A stretch of 54,289 bases of DNA from Fragilaria crotonensis (taxonomy: Eukaryota > Bacillariophyta > Fragilariophyceae > Fragilariales > Fragilariaceae), in contig JAKSYS010000418.1 of NCBI GenBank assembly GCA_022925895.1, positions 1 to 54,289 of the forward strand, read 5' to 3'. Shown piece after piece: positions 22,065 through 29,724 of the stretch. The position numbers and the translations under genes were made by a program. Position 1 is the stretch's first letter. The number at the start of each line of letters is the position of its first letter. Below the pieces are notes generated by a model. That model worked only from the letters and a program-made list of their open reading frames with translations, was not told where the DNA came from and did no database searches.

Positions 22065-25000
22065 TCATTCATGGGAGTTCGGGGTGACAGATGCATTGAG
22101 TAAAACCGCAGGGGTAGGAGACATTGACTGAACGCAAGGCGCCTCAGTTTCGTCGATTAGTATTTGCCTTGTCACCGTCTGTACCTCCTCACTATCATGA
22201 GTGGACGAGTCTGGAGAGTGGCACCCCATTGGAGTCTGCGGCGTCACGACGCTACGCACCTTCGCTTGACTTTTGTCATCGTCGGAAACGCCCAATTCTT
22301 CCTCTTGCGTGACATCGAAGGCAATAGGAGCAGTTGATGTCCAGCTACCCGTCTTGACATCGAACCGGTGAGACCGACTGGTTTGGGCTTGGGAATTACG
22401 TAAGAGCATAGCTTCTTGTTCCCTGACTTTCTGAGCATGGACAGGAGCTTCAGTGAAGAAGCGCTTCATTTCCTTTTGCAATCCAGCCCACCCACCATAA
22501 ATAGAATGCGTGCGGGTGTCACCGTTATCTCGCATGGAAAGGTTCCTGACGTGATGGCGCATCCATTTGGGAAGTCGGAGGTGCGCTTGGCAGAGGTGAC
22601 CCTCACGAGGACCTCCATCGTCGCAATGTCTCGAGTCCATTAAGACAATAGTGCCGTAGTCAGATGCATGGCGAATGCATCTACCCAAGGCTTGAGCAAT
22701 GGCGCGGTAGGCCTGTTGAGCGTACCAATCGTTTCCTGGCAACAAATCCAATCGCTTATTCAACTTTCGCTGTTCGTCGTTGTATGCCTTCTTGGCTGTA
22801 ATGGGACGACTGTAAGCACTGGGAAATGGAATACCGACGCAAATGACACCTCTTGCGTTCTCGTCGTTGAAACTGATGCCTTCACTCATCTTCCCGCGAA
22901 ATACAGCCAGCAGGACGCAGCTACCCGTGGCCGAAATCGTACGCGCGTACTCCTCCCGCGCCAACTCAAAATCAGCTTGAGAACCAGTCGGCTCAACAAC
23001 GACCTTACCCTTGCTAGCAACAAGGCGTTCCCAGACTGTTGATCGTGCCCCACTTCTCTGTCGTGCCTGCCACCCATCTGCACCTTGCCGAGCTTGCCAT
23101 GTTGTAACACACTTTCGGAGATTTGAGTAGCTTGAGAAAAACACTAATACCCCACCAGAAGGAATGGACTGGACAACAGTCGCGATCGCATCACCCAAAT
23201 TGCGGACGAAACTGTCCTGGTTCCAAGTACAATAGTTGGCCGTCAGCGGCGAACCTTGGAGTGTAAATCAAAGCGTTAAAAAAAGAACAAAAGCAGTACC
23301 ACGGCCAAAAGGAAACACTCACCATCCATTAGAACACCACAGCTGACAACTAGTAACTGCTTTTCCAAGTCAATAACGTGGTCCGCCTCCAGAGGTTTCG
23401 GCGTCATCTGCAACCGAGGCACTGGCGTAATCACTCCGCAAGGTGGAGACAGAAGCTGTTCCTCCCAGTCAAAAACTCTGTCGGCCTCCGAAACGTCCAA
23501 GGGTTGCTGGGAGTTCTGCGAGTGTGGGAATTCTTTTGTTTCTTTTCCTTGCTCGGATTCGTTCGCAGGTGTTCCCAGCAATCCCGATGATAATAGCGAT
23601 TCTTCTTTGGTTGCTGTTGAGCCGAGTAGGCCTAATTCGGCGCATAGCGATGGTATTGGTGCCAATGAGCCCGAGGCCAACACAACAGTACGACATTGGT
23701 GTCGAAGGTCGGCAAACAACGGTGCTGGTGTTAAAAGCTCGAATCGTAACAACGCTTCCCACCGGGGCTGCGCACCGTCGCAGTATTGCCCATGGCGGAT
23801 GTATGTAAGCTTACCTGTCCGGCTACAGAATGTAGCACGGCATTCAGGACGAGTACATACGCACGTGCTCGTAATCTTGGGTAAACACCGGAATTTGTCA
23901 GTGGGTTGGACAGGCGAGGTGTCATCCTCCGTCTCGTCCCTTGAAGCAAACTCAAGTGATCCATTAGCCTTGATCGCCGACGCAATGTAGTAGTGCTCAG
24001 AGTGTTTGGCCGTGAGAGATAGAATTGTCGTAAGAGCACTCAATTTGTCGAGAATTCCACTGAACTTATCCGTTTGCCAATCTTCCTCACCACGCAGACT
24101 TTTGACGAATTCTGCACTGCTGGATTGCAACTGATCGCCGTCAAAGTCTGTGTCAAGTTTTTCCAAGAACGTGGCACATCCGACAGCTTTTCCCCGCACC
24201 CCATGGCCGGTGGGGCCGTCAAATGTCATGTCGAAATCCTTGTCATCGTTTACTTGGCCGTTGCGCCATTGTTGGAGCACTTGGGTTGCCTTTGATCGTT
24301 CGAACTTGACTTTGTTGTCAAACAGGCAGCGAAGCAGTGATTCGACGACGAGCAATATTGTATGCGCACAATCGGAGAGTTGAGCAGCTTCGGGAGAACT
24401 ACGGAAGGTTGGTTTGACCGACGCGTATTCATACAACATTTTGACCATTTCGGCCAACTCGAACTCACTAAACGTTCCGGAACCCGATTCACGAAGGATA
24501 TCTTCCACATTGTGAGCTTCATCGAGGACCACAATCGAGTTCCTCAGGTTTATTCCCGACATTTCTCTAATGTTTGGATCCAAGACGTAGTTGTATGGGC
24601 AAAACACGAGTTCGGCATCTTTCGCAAGTCCCTTGGAAAGATAGTAGGGGCACGGAGCATGTTCAGAGAGATCTTCTTCAGTGTCATCCACGACGTGGTC
24701 AGGATTCGAGGTAGTATCCAGCATCAATGGCTTGTCATCTGGAGTCTGCCCTACTTGACGGGCTGCCTGTTGGACGGAAGGAGCAGCTGCTTTCCCATTG
24801 ATGGTTAGGATTACATCGCCAACTTTCACTGCCGCCGATGAAGCTGCTGGACTTGGATTTCGAATGGCTCCAATCCGAATTCTATTTTCGTCTTCAATGA
24901 GCGTCATACCGAATGGTTCCTGCGGAGATCGATAGATGGCAACACCTCGCTGACGATACGGATCTTTTCCAAAGAGTACCAAATCTTCAACATCGTGCGT

Positions 25001-26029
25001 CCCATGCTTGGAATCGGCACCACCGTTTTTGGCCGCGCGAGTTGGCACAAAGCTGTTGCATGCCATGACAGCGGTCCGTCGTGTGCCAATTTGTTGATAA
25101 TGAGGACAGCATGACTTTTTGGGCAATCGTCGAAGCATACCATCATTGTGTTCATCATCATCAGGATCATGCGCGTCTGCTGATGTCGGAGTGGCAGGTG
25201 GTGCTTGTTCTGTCGAATCCTCCCATGAAGGTTTTGGTGGATTGTTGTCGTCATAGTACTCATGACGGGATGTGAGCATGTATTTCCGCATATCTTCCGT
25301 GGTTTTCACACGCACACGACATTCCTTATCCATATTTTTACTGTCCAGTACTCGTTGGTTGATGCACAAGAGTTTTCGGCTCCCCAACATGGCCATTCGA
25401 GGACGGTATGGTGTTTTGCGAAGAGACGAGACCATCTGAGCCACCTGTGAATGAGTTCGAGAGCAGTAAAAGATCCGGCATGGTCTTTCGATTGACGCGC
25501 CTTCCATTTTGGTATGATAACGATGCCAGGCTAGGACGGAACAAAGAATGGCAGCACTCTTCCCCGTACCTGTAGGAGATTCGATGACCACATGCTTGGA
25601 TGCTTTCAGTGCAGTAATTAGATGCATAGCCATTTGGCGTTGGGGTTTCATGACAACTGGAAACGGCCAACCAATTTTTACACCACTGACGAAAAATGAA
25701 GGGTGGAGACTTAGTTTTGGTAGGTCGCCTTCCATGGGTTCTGTAGTTTTTGTAGCAGACTCGAAACGCTCTGTAGGCCGTGAACCATTTCCACTAACCG
25801 GGACAGAATATCCCTTTAAAATTAATTGTTCTCGTAAATTTTCGGCAAGCAAATCCGTGATTCGCTTTTCTTGTGGTTTCTTGACGGCCTTCTCGTCGCC
25901 ATTGTCAAAGTGCGATGAATGAGAGGAAGGGCGTTCAAGTTCTTCATGAATCAATTCTTCAATCCTCGTTCTTTTGGCATTTCGCTGATCAACGTCGGAC
26001 TCCTTGACCTTGGTCATTAATTCACTCAT
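22065..26029 (-). CDS. FANCJ: FANCJ/BRIP1-type Fe-S DNA helicase with inserted PDZ domain
   Basis: Exon 1 is 26029-23323 and exon 2 is 23254-22065. A 68-bp intron (GTGAGT...CCAAG) joins VLMD to GSPLTANY, giving 1298 aa. This is an XPD-superfamily 5'-3' helicase: Walker A SPTGTGKS (~151-158), DEAH box VVLDEAHNVED (~503), motif V AVFRGKMSEGISF, and motif VI QALGRCIRH. Four Fe-S cysteines fit FANCJ: LCINQ, KECRV, SCCPHY and APCPYYLSKG. FANCJ-like flanks are HDVEDLVLFGK and AELVFCPYNYVLD, which favour FANCJ over XPD, RTEL1 or DDX11. FANCJ acts in crosslink repair and G-quadruplex unwinding. Between HDVEDLVLFGK and APCPYY sits an extra ~100 residues containing a PDZ domain (listed separately). The start ATG at 26029 follows a GTG in the same frame. 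Confidence 0.9.
24713..24946 (-). other. PDZ domain inserted in the Fe-S domain of the helicase
   Basis: Residues ~362-440 read as a PDZ fold. They have a carboxylate-binding loop EPFGMTL, then IRIGAIRNPSPAA, the conserved VGDVILTINGK turn, an alpha-2 helix SVQQAARQVG and a final strand KPLMLDT. It lies between the third and fourth Fe-S cysteines. PDZ domains bind C-terminal peptides of partner proteins. It is encoded in the same uninterrupted exon as the helicase motifs, so it is not an annotation fusion. Confidence 0.82.
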
Positions 26030-26846
26030 GATGCTGTCTGGGCTTCGGATGAAGAACACGCCGGTGACAGGCGACAGGCGGCGGACAGCAATTTCACTCT
26101 TTCAGCATTTGCGACGTGCCGTGCTCCTGATGATGTGTGTGAGCTACAGTATGTGCTGTGAGATGAGAACACAGTTGAAAACTTGGCGCGCAATATCATC
26201 AGATTACTTTGCAAGGGTTATCGTTAGGTCTCACATTAAGGACAGCATCAGTTGCATTCCATATTCCGTCAATCGCGGCATACCATGTACGTGTACGTTG
26301 TATGATATTTGACATAGGACGTATTCATAGGGTACAAGTAGCAGTAGTAATACCGGTAGGGTTTGTACTCCAGTCTCGTACTAGTACCAGCATACAGCAA
26401 GTAAGAACAGAGAATGAAGTCTACGGAGAGATGGCCGGCCGGCGCATTTTCGTGTGCTCGCTGGCGAATAATCACAAACGTATATATGTCGACTGCAGGA
26501 CCCTCTATAAAAATGAAACCCAAATATTTTCTTTCGCGTTCGGTCGCTGTTGAATCGTGTGCGTAGCCCATAGTCTTATTTCATATACTTCTTTAGTTTC
26601 GTATAAAGAAAAACTCTTGATAAGAATAACATTGATAGAATGACAAGTTAGGACGGCTTTTACTATCCTTAATGCTCATATGTTTGCATTGCCGTCAGAC
26701 TTGAATCCATGCATATCCATCCTCTTTAGTATACTGCATCACGTTTCCCTCCAATTTAATACTATACATGTGTGATGACCACCATGGATATTGCCAAAGC
26801 TGCACGCTGATCATAAAACAATTTAATCGAAGTTACTCTGGAAACA
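26030..26846. promoter_or_regulatory. Shared upstream region of the divergent FANCJ and LRR genes
   Basis: An ~800-bp intergenic stretch lies between two divergently transcribed genes, so it should carry both promoters. A CTATAAAAATG element (about 26504) could be a TATA box facing the LRR gene. No other known motif is claimed. Confidence 0.4.
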
Positions 26847-29724
26847 ATGGCTCCTGTTTACCATGACGACGACGAAGAAGACATTCCTCCTCCACCACCA
26901 TCTCATCCCCACCCTGATGATGTCAAGGCTGCACCGCTTGATAGTGATGAGAAAGCCGAAACGCACAAGGCCAACGACCTGGAAGATGGGCAATCCTATG
27001 AGATCCCACCGACACCGGTTGTACATCGCATGACGGAAGCGGAAGACAATGCGAAATCTCCAAGCCGGAGTCGCAATGCAATTTACGGTTGTATCATTGC
27101 TGTGTTTGTCATCCTCATCGCAGTAATTCTCGGTGTTGGCTTTGGAACGGGATCATTCCAGGGTGGAAAGTCCTCGAGTGCACCTCCTCCGTCAACTGAG
27201 GAACCTACGCCATCTCCAGCCCCGATTGGAGGACGGGAACAAGCCTTAATCGATTACATTTCTTCTGTATCAGTCAATGGTTCAAACTCCTTTGAGAACC
27301 CAAAATCAGGCGAATCTCTCGCCTTGCAGTGGTTGGTGACCAATGATACTCTGATGCTCGATCCTACGGATCCTGACTTTCATCAGCGCATCAATCAGCG
27401 ATACGCACTTGCGACCCTCTTCTACGCGTCTGACACTTGGAAGGATGAAAGCAACTGGTTGAATGAGGATGAATGTACATGGGCGGGTGTTTCGTGCGAT
27501 TCCAATGCTCAATCGCAAGGAGGACGTCGACGCGGTCTATCCCAAGGAAACACGACAGCACCTGTTTTGGCAATCAATTTGACCAGTAACAGTTACAGTG
27601 GAACACTTCCTGCAGATTTCGGTTTGTTGACTTCTCTTACCAGCATTGACTTTTCTACAAACGAGGTTCAAGGAGACTTTGATAGTGTCAATTGGACCAA
27701 ATTCGCCGACCTTGTCGAGCTAGACGTCTCAGAGAATTCACTCGCAGGATCGCTTGGTACAAGTTTGTTCAAGCTCTCAACTCTTGAGACACTAATCCTG
27801 TCGAACAATCCTGACCTAGTTGGTAGCATCCCATCCACCATTGGCAACCTTGTGAATCTGCAAGTTTTCATAGCCGATAACACTGGTCTCAAGGGTTCAA
27901 TACCCTCCAGCATTGGACTAGCGCAACAGTTGGTGACGTTTGACGTTAGCTCGGCAAAAGTGAGTGGAGCAATCCCTACAGAAATCGGTAATCTCCAGAA
28001 CCTCCAGGTTTTCGTTGCAGATGAAAACTCCTTGACAGGAACGATTCCTGTGCAGGTTAGCAATATGAAGTCATTGGTCGAGTTTAGCTGCCACAGGAAT
28101 GAGTTGTCGGGGACTATCGATGGGATATTTGGAGGGCTTTCAAGCTTACGTAAGTTCCATGAGAAGGTTGTTTCAGATCTCGGAAAGAAATAGTCCAGCT
28201 AACACCACCGTTCGTAACTCAGAAACCCTCCGGTTGGGAATGAACTTGTTCACCGGTGCCCCGCCCCAGGACATTGGGCAGCTCCAGAGTTTGCGTAAGT
28301 TTTCTGAAAGTCAAATATCACGAGCTTTATTTTGCGATTATCTGAACATATGCGGCGCAAACCTCCAGAATCACTTGTCCTTGCTGGCAATGACTTTAAT
28401 GGCAACAGCATACCGACGTCCTATACCAGTTTGACATCCTTGCAACTGCTGAATATGGGAAGTTGCAATCTGACAGGTTTTCTCGATTCGAGTCTTGCAA
28501 ATTTAGTTAGCCTAGTGGAGCTTTTCCTCGATGACAACATGCTTTCAGGAACATTCCCTTCTGCTCTTCTCACGTCCCCAAAACTCGGTACGTACAATTT
28601 CATTTGACAGCCTCTACTTTGATTCTTTGCCTCACGATTTGATTCCCTGTACATAGAAAAATTGTATCTTTCGGGCAATCAATTAACCGGACTTATCCCC
28701 AACGGCTTGTGGCGCATGACCACTCTTGTCGAGTTGTCACTGGGCAGCAACACGAACATGACTGGCCAAATCGGTACATCAATCGGAAATATGGTGAATT
28801 TGGGTAAGTCAACGGGATGGCTTGTTAAAATGGATTAGATGTATTCTCAACTGTTGAGCGAAGTTGTACTTGACTTGCATGATAGCAGCTTGGATGGAAA
28901 CATTCCAGAGCAAATCGGAAACTTGGAGAAACTCGGTACGTGATTGATGACAAACAAGCAAAGTTTCGACCAACATGGTAGCGGGTGTCAATTCGTCTCA
29001 CAAGTTCACTCCTTTGCCCGCAGAAACATTGGATCTCGGGGTCAACGGCTTCAGCGGCACCATTCCGGAGACCATAAGTCAGCTGGGAAACCTCATGATT
29101 CTAGATTTGGAATCGAATTTTCTCAACGGCACAATACCAGCCGCTATTTCCAAACTCAGCAATCTTGGTAAGAAACTCCCCATGAATCTGCCGTGGTGCG
29201 ACATCATCATTTGTCTCACATATTTTTCTGGTGACGCTAGCCAAGCTGGAGCTCCGCTTCAATGACATTGCAGGCCAAATTCCTACCGGTATCGGCGAGC
29301 TGTCCAATCTAGGTAAGTCTATGCATCTTGCAACATAAACCCTCACACTCTGGCGATTTTTACTCATGTCTATGCCTCAGAATACGTGGGTTTGCAGGGA
29401 ATGTTCCTTACGGGGTCCATCCCGGAAAGTGTGGGCGGCCTTCGCAAGGTTACAGACCTCCAACTTCAAGAAAACCGACTCAGTGGTTTCGTGCCTTCCG
29501 AAATCGGACAAATGCAAAGTATCAAGGGAATCAACTTACGCAACAACTCCTTGACGGGCACCGTACCAACTCAATTCGGCGCACTTGCAAGCCTTGACTC
29601 ACTCGTAATCGACGGAAACGTTTTCAGTGGCAGTATTCCTGCCGAGATCTGCGCCGTTGCTCCGCGAGAAATTGTTCGGGATTGTTTTGTAGCGTGCTCG
29701 TGCTGCACTCAGCCATGTACGTGA
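26847..29724 (+). CDS. Membrane-anchored leucine-rich-repeat protein, eight exons
   Basis: Exons are 26847-28149, 28223-28294, 28369-28587, 28657-28803, 28864-28935, 29024-29167, 29241-29312 and 29381-29724, total 2373 nt (790 aa). All seven introns are phase 1 with GTAAG/GTACG donors. An acidic/Pro-rich cytosolic N-terminus (DDDEEDIPPPPPSHP) precedes one membrane helix (IYGCIIAVFVILIAVILGVG, ~79-98). A Pro/Ser linker follows, then a plant-type LRR N-cap (WKDESNWLNEDECTWAGVSC) and about 18 LRRs (LxxLxLxxNxLxGxIPxxIGxL), ending in a Cys-rich cap (CFVACSCCTQPC). The topology is cytosol-in, LRR-out. There is no kinase, so if it is a receptor it must signal through partners. Diatoms carry expanded families of this type; the ligand is unknown. 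Confidence 0.87.

Follow-up and report, generated by a model that had tools for sequence, protein, structure and literature searches.

A PDZ domain nested in the Fe-S domain of a predicted FANCJ-type helicase from the diatom Fragilaria crotonensis

In contig JAKSYS010000418.1 of the diatom Fragilaria crotonensis, analysed here over positions 1 to 54,289 (the window), a frame with the motifs of an iron-sulfur (Fe-S) helicase of the FANCJ type is enlarged by a segment that resembles a PDZ domain. Is this a PDZ domain inserted into the Fe-S domain of a repair helicase, or an intron, an artefact or a decaying spacer; and if it is a PDZ domain, what might it do there? The minus-strand open frame at 26101..23276 comprises 941 codons and is uninterrupted through the insert. 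Joined by script to a second exon across a short intron, and with the frame's first Met taken as the start, it yields the following gene model:

26029..22065 (-): FANCJ-like helicase gene, whole model, two exons, 1298 residues
23323..26029 (-): exon 1, from the first Met (predicted start) to the donor GTGAGT
23255..23322 (-): predicted intron of 68 bases, GTGAGT...CCAAG, from sequence reading and in-frame joining by script
22065..23254 (-): exon 2, C-terminal helicase domain and protein tail, from Pfam and PDB relatives

Exon 1 carries helicase domain 1, the Fe-S domain with the PDZ insert, the arch region and motif III, while the stop codon (22067..22065) follows a protein C-terminus that reads NSHE. 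Near its end exon 1 also contains a repeat, 23491..23429 (SEADRVFDWEEQLLSPPCGVI) and 23392..23330 (LEADHVIDLEKQLLVVSCGVL), both on the minus strand, whose copies agree at 12 of 21 residues and at 36 of 63 bases, as if an old partial duplication had occurred just ahead of the intron. On the opposite strand, a neighbouring frame at 26847..28193 (+) and later frames encode an acidic, proline-rich N-terminus followed, by eye, by a membrane helix and leucine-rich repeats.

Both exons point to a helicase of the XPD/FANCJ type. In exon 1 Pfam detects DEAD_2 (E 1.9e-36) and DEAD, in exon 2 Helicase_C_2 (PF13307, E 1.8e-41), and for either exon the Fanconi anemia group J protein heads the PDB matches: E 4.3e-40 for exon 1, with 140.8 bits against 55.4 for XPD, and E 5.3e-32 for exon 2, with 114.5 bits against 71.3 for CHL1. 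The solved chain in question, 9ej9, we take to be human FANCJ/BRIP1. The supported assignment is thus to a predicted FANCJ-type helicase nearer to FANCJ than to XPD or CHL1, on bit scores against PDB chains of these three; no RTEL1 helicase chain is among the matches, and what speaks against an RTEL1 identity is solely a separate RTEL1-like gene in the same genome. The initial annotation, made from the letters alone, had also called the gene FANCJ-type, in agreement with the top place of FANCJ among the solved relatives of each exon. It had further placed the PDZ segment in the same exon as all helicase motifs, which stands for motifs I to III, including GTGKS (motif I) and DEAH (motif II), and fails for the C-terminal helicase domain, which lies past the 68-base intron. 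The assembly contains one full-length match to the exon. Three further Fe-S helicases occupy separate loci in the genome, one XPD-like (L071), one RTEL1-like (L070) and one CHL1/DDX11-like (L072), the names RTEL1 and CHL1 for the last two being presumptive, from motifs.

The features that define the insertion are as follows:

24997..24965 (-): HDVEDLVLFGK, 5' flank of the insert, open frame
24659..24964 (-): inserted segment, DPYRQ to LSEH, 102 residues (net about 100 extra), from the gap against other helicases
24704..24946 (-): PDZ domain, GVAIYR...DTTSN, from Pfam, a sequence search of solved chains and the predicted fold
24823..24791 (-): VGDVILTINGK, PDZ core motif, open frame
24658..24641 (-): APCPYY, 3' flank of the insert, open frame

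From the anchor Gly of the first flank to the fourth cluster cysteine, a script counts 105 residues in the diatom helicase and 5 in each of four other helicases (the XPD-, CHL1- and RTEL1-like proteins of the same genome and a helicase, L001, from Sifarchaeum, which we take to be an Asgard archaeon); the spacing is likewise 5 in the aligned FANCJ and XPD. In a query stripped of the insert and of a portion of another linker, the flanks co-align with FANCJ (WDIEELVSLGKKLKACPYY), with E 3.6e-27 for the whole query, and with XPD (NLDDLKALGRRQGWCPYF). The junction of the insert-removed query leaves a two-residue gap against FANCJ and XPD alike. A Pfam scan of an alignment (A3) of the diatom helicase with nine others, drawn from 33 helicase loci (30 on GTDB contigs and 3 on viral contigs), finds PDZ in one of the ten members, the diatom helicase itself. 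That the flanks are adjacent in known proteins, as had been proposed, is therefore borne out by FANCJ, XPD and four further helicases, and the alignments together with the spacing of 105 against 5 uphold the placement of the PDZ segment within the Fe-S domain. At the level of sequence, we consider both the helicase identity and the insertion firm.

Whether the inserted segment is a PDZ domain was judged first by profile. A profile search of the translation, from which the initial annotation had expected PDZ and the helicase family, returned DEAD_2 as above and PDZ (PF00595) over its cut-off on the 102-residue insert alone (25.8 bits, cut-off 23.2, E 1.4e-5); on the whole exon PDZ scored 20.9 bits, under the cut-off, which counts against the explanation that we favour. 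PDZ_2 and PDZ_6 match the insert as well, each under its own cut-off. In a genome-wide scan the insert, above the cut-off with its 25.8 bits, ranks 20th among the 40 PDZ matches listed. Shuffled inserts gave a PDZ match in none of ten cases, one shuffle matching TAFA at E 0.23. Searched by sequence against solved chains, the insert finds the PDZ of MAGI-2 at the top (E 5.9e-4), then DegP-type proteases and PDZ scaffolds; the best 60 of 100 rows also include glyceraldehyde-3-phosphate dehydrogenase 4lsm (E 0.74), which is not known to be a PDZ protein. The Pfam match spans positions 3-57 of the 81 in the profile, and it is the DegP alignment and the predicted fold that support the last third of the domain. 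The range first assigned to it, 24713-24946 (open-frame residues 386-463), coincides almost completely with the PDZ, the full extra segment being 24964..24659.

The AlphaFold2 prediction covered open-frame residues 370-493, aligned with 17 PDZ-like rows from viral contigs, and showed a PDZ-like order of strands and helices, with block pLDDT of 69-85 in the core and a mean of 58.9. Because this alignment was assembled from PDZ sequences, we count the predicted fold as support and not as independent proof. Foldseek with the insert model gave a best E of 5.2e-3 and none at or below 0.001, yet the best 50 of 894 rows (E up to 10) are all PDZ by title or proteins that bear a PDZ domain, among them CtpA, DegS, GIPC and Tiam1. 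VIA-align placed the PDZ of EpsC first (Z 7.3, rmsd 2.7, 76 aligned), a Z under 8 being one that may reflect merely a common arrangement. The modelled insert thus resembles PDZ with modest scores. In a model of the helicase with its insert the mean pLDDT was 47.8, with block means of 20-43 over about residues 101-350, where the alignment used (A6) has relatives' rows missing across most of the Fe-S region; Foldseek with this model lists XPD and DinG, with E down to 5.2e-7, the Fe-S region being unusable there. Since pLDDT is so low in the helicase context, we make no claim on the position of the PDZ relative to the Fe-S lobe. Three alignments (A3, A4 and A5) with misplaced helicase parts were kept out of fold prediction, A3 serving just for the single-member Pfam scan. 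Taken with the profile and chain searches, the sequence supports the identification of the insert as a predicted PDZ domain.

A segment that interrupts a conserved loop might instead be wholly or mostly an intron, or be skipped in some transcripts. By hand count, 69 frame-preserving GT..AG pairs of at least 60 bases lie within 24640-25010, and four of these (24954..24673, 24954..24676, 24945..24673 and 24945..24676, 270-282 bases) would drop nearly the whole PDZ in frame. None of the 69 matches the edges of the insert, however, and the donor sites of the four, GTCAGC and GTGTTG, like their acceptors rich in purines (CTGAAGAAG), look weak beside the GTGAGT intron of the gene itself. The segment also matches PDZ, and its G+C of 0.50 equals that of the remaining coding sequence (0.50) as opposed to 0.40 in the 68-base intron. 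By codon score the segment looks weakly coding, with 0.007 in frame against -0.039 and -0.029 out of frame, a value near the bottom of the range for windows along the gene (-0.011 to 0.130); G+C at third positions is 0.39 in the insert and 0.49 elsewhere in the coding sequence. Both the low score and this difference count against the favoured explanation. Codon usage overall lends weak support to a coding insert, and we consider removal by splicing very unlikely. An assembly or pseudogene artefact, for which one could cite the single draft assembly and its one full-length match, we hardly credit at all, given the 941-codon open frame, a canonical intron that joins both exons, and an insert that is in frame and at a site like a domain boundary.

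A second issue is whether the Fe-S domain could still hold its cluster. The relevant positions, with residue numbers that refer to the 1298-residue model, are:

25364..25366 (-): Fe-S cysteine 1, C222, aligned to the Cys of HTC in FANCJ
25319..25321 (-): Fe-S cysteine 2, C237, aligned to NEKC of FANCJ
25112..25318 (-): linker between cysteines 2 and 3, 69 residues with an acidic stretch, from length and charge by script
25109..25111 (-): Fe-S cysteine 3, C307 (alternatively the neighbouring C308), by position only
24653..24655 (-): Pro459, in the position of A349 of human FANCJ, from sequence
24650..24652 (-): Fe-S cysteine 4, C460, in APCPYY, aligned to ACPYY of FANCJ

The four cluster cysteines are kept in the sequence, as had been supposed, C222, C237 and C460 by phmmer alignment to FANCJ and C307 by position, at spacings of 15, 70 and 153. 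The acidic run DPDDDEHND between cysteines 2 and 3 marks a second enlargement of the same Fe-S domain. Immediately before the fourth cysteine the four helicases measured have V, W, A and I, and the diatom has Pro. In human FANCJ, A349P is described in the excerpts of two papers as a Fanconi anaemia allele in which iron is lowered and translocation is uncoupled from unwinding (PMC7316351, PMC4204437). Since Pro459 stands at the place of A349, cluster binding and 5'-3' unwinding by the diatom helicase become a real question.

This arrangement invites the alternative that the PDZ acts as a regulatory gate, in which binding of a ligand or of the protein itself would alter the Fe-S lobe and toggle unwinding, with no recruitment of a partner. 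The insert stops two residues short of the fourth cluster cysteine, and the residue between sets both cluster binding and the coupling of translocation to unwinding in human FANCJ, as the excerpts on A349P describe (PMC7316351, PMC4204437), and is Pro here; against this, NSHE, with which the protein ends, is atypical of PDZ ligands, and the exit linker appears flexible. We give the gate rather little credence. To a bolder variant we attach less still. In it, this diatom lineage would have built peptide recognition into the wedge of a crosslink-repair helicase: a C-terminal tail bound to the PDZ would open or close the Fe-S lobe, Pro would be tolerated as the PDZ re-routes the chain into the fourth cysteine, and unwinding would be conditional on a partner.

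If the domain binds anything, its groove should be recognizable in the sequence. One further feature is needed:

24899..24919 (-): putative carboxylate-binding loop EPFGMTL, with Arg ahead in IYRSPQ, aligned to IHRKENEGFGFVI of the MAGI-2 PDZ

A loop of this type binds the ligand's terminal carboxylate and is defined by Arg followed by X-phi-G-phi. IYRSPQEPFGM aligns with IHRKENEGFGF of MAGI-2, keeping the Arg and X-phi-G-phi, and SVQQAARQVG aligns with SFAALRAQVG of DegP; the Val of the former we take to be alpha-B1, the start of helix alpha-B. The carboxylate-binding loop thus looks intact and, by the usual rules, the Arg with its X-phi-G-phi loop and the Val at alpha-B1 together lead us to predict a hydrophobic C-terminal ligand. 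Candidates screened by C-terminus were MLH1 (AFER), PCNA (DEDN) and the helicase (NSHE), none of which resembles a hydrophobic PDZ ligand. The Ctf4_C profile had no match, a result that does not show absence. The gene encoding the MLH1-like protein (L073, near position 1500 of G000:C687) ends AFER and then TGA. MLH1 usually ends FERC, the Cys completing the nuclease site of a partner; the predicted MLH1-like protein seems to be without this terminal Cys.

The source of the domain was sought within the genome (62.1 Mb, 881 contigs). Thirty-six of the 40 listed PDZ matches were excised and 35 compared in frame with the insert by blastp and phmmer; outside the comparison were the helicase itself, C20:30159 (inside L052), C107:38617, C135:37868 and L034. 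The nearest segment among the 35, L039, is 41% identical over 41 residues, and we therefore reject the insert as a recent copy of any of them. It may be that the PDZ is real and inert, a tolerated and decaying spacer that binds nothing. In favour of this, the insert has no close relative among the compared segments and matches the PDZ profile only in part, and in engineering work three enzymes tolerated PDZ inserts at several sites (PMC12328240); the loop and core positions are nevertheless retained in the MAGI-2 and DegP alignments, the insert is free of stops and frame shifts, and the helicase motifs are intact. We think an inert spacer unlikely, if far from negligible.

We hypothesize instead that the gene encodes a FANCJ-type helicase with a complete nested PDZ that serves as a docking module, recruiting a partner by the partner's C-terminus, a reading that we regard as probable, though narrowly so. 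The PDZ is inserted ahead of the fourth cluster cysteine, in the loop that follows the DVEDLVLFG helix. It would fold independently with its two ends near each other, and a brief lead-in, together with an acidic linker of about 19 residues at the exit, would allow the Fe-S fold to close around it. The X-phi-G-phi loop and the hydrophobic first residue of alpha-B would bind a C-terminus of hydrophobic type (class II or HtrA-like). Most likely the domain would tether the helicase to a nuclear partner at a stalled fork or a crosslink, bringing the Fe-S wedge to the junction. We favour docking on a nuclear partner because, in the excerpted accounts, the Fe-S cluster of XPD-type helicases is a wedge-like element required for unwinding (PMC7316351) and FANCJ is positioned by partners such as MLH1 (PMC4204437) and also AND-1 (PMC10897178). 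An additional effect on unwinding may be possible, because the insert enters just before the Pro-Cys step that controls the cluster of human FANCJ. Recruitment, peptide sensing and regulation of unwinding, the roles put forward in the initial annotation, are each plausible for this domain.

A natural insertion of a whole docking domain before the fourth cysteine would mean that a module is tolerated at this place of the Fe-S lobe, and would suggest a repair helicase that depends on a partner. The loop ahead of that cysteine has five residues in the helicases compared, and one of them decides whether human FANCJ unwinds DNA. The insertion would offer a test of the coupling between translocation and unwinding by the Fe-S lobe, with a bearing on the failure of A349P.

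The arrangement is known from one genome, the only eukaryotic one covered. Searches with the exon found no relative in viral contigs (1 pattern-matched stretch) or genome contigs (15 stretches), and a search with the insert found none in viral contigs (26 stretches); a search with a 79-residue fragment found 30 helicase loci in GTDB contigs (225 stretches) and 3 in viral contigs (11 stretches). The same genome has silicon transporter genes (of 19 matches listed, 18 exceed the cut-off, and some have internal stops), as expected of a diatom. Some of these matches lie head to tail in one frame, three in G000:C97:29749-33762 (1456 codons) and two in C771:21664-24330 (1008 codons), an arrangement suggestive of transporters with several units.

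In the titles and abstract openings of the literature surveyed, which includes few subscription journals, no FANCJ with a PDZ is reported. PDZ as an inserted domain is already known: in the excerpt of one study it is the most promiscuous insert domain of the data set, with 11 parents (PMC12328240), and in that of another PDZ inserts occur in 13 host groups (PMC13114784). Neither excerpt names an Fe-S or XPD-type helicase as host, unlike the diatom case (PMC12328240, PMC13114784), and as far as these portions of the literature extend, a PDZ in the Fe-S domain of a FANCJ-type helicase appears new. The PDZ domains of MAGI-2 and DegP share with the insert the loop motif, the GDxIxxING core and the predicted order of strands and helices, the host being a scaffold or a protease in those proteins and an Fe-S helicase in the diatom. 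The three other Fe-S helicases of the genome (L071, L070 and L072) have in common with the FANCJ-like protein the helix of the Fe-S domain and a CPYY, CPFY or CSYY motif, and differ from it in a Gly-to-Cys spacing of 5 as opposed to 105. FANCJ/BRIP1 (9ej9) is the closest parallel by score, sharing the helicase motifs, the Fe-S cysteines and the stretches FCPYNYxLDxxIRE and VxLDEAHNxED; it has no PDZ, its WDIEELVSLGKKLKACPYY is uninterrupted, and before the fourth cysteine it has Ala where the diatom helicase has Pro.
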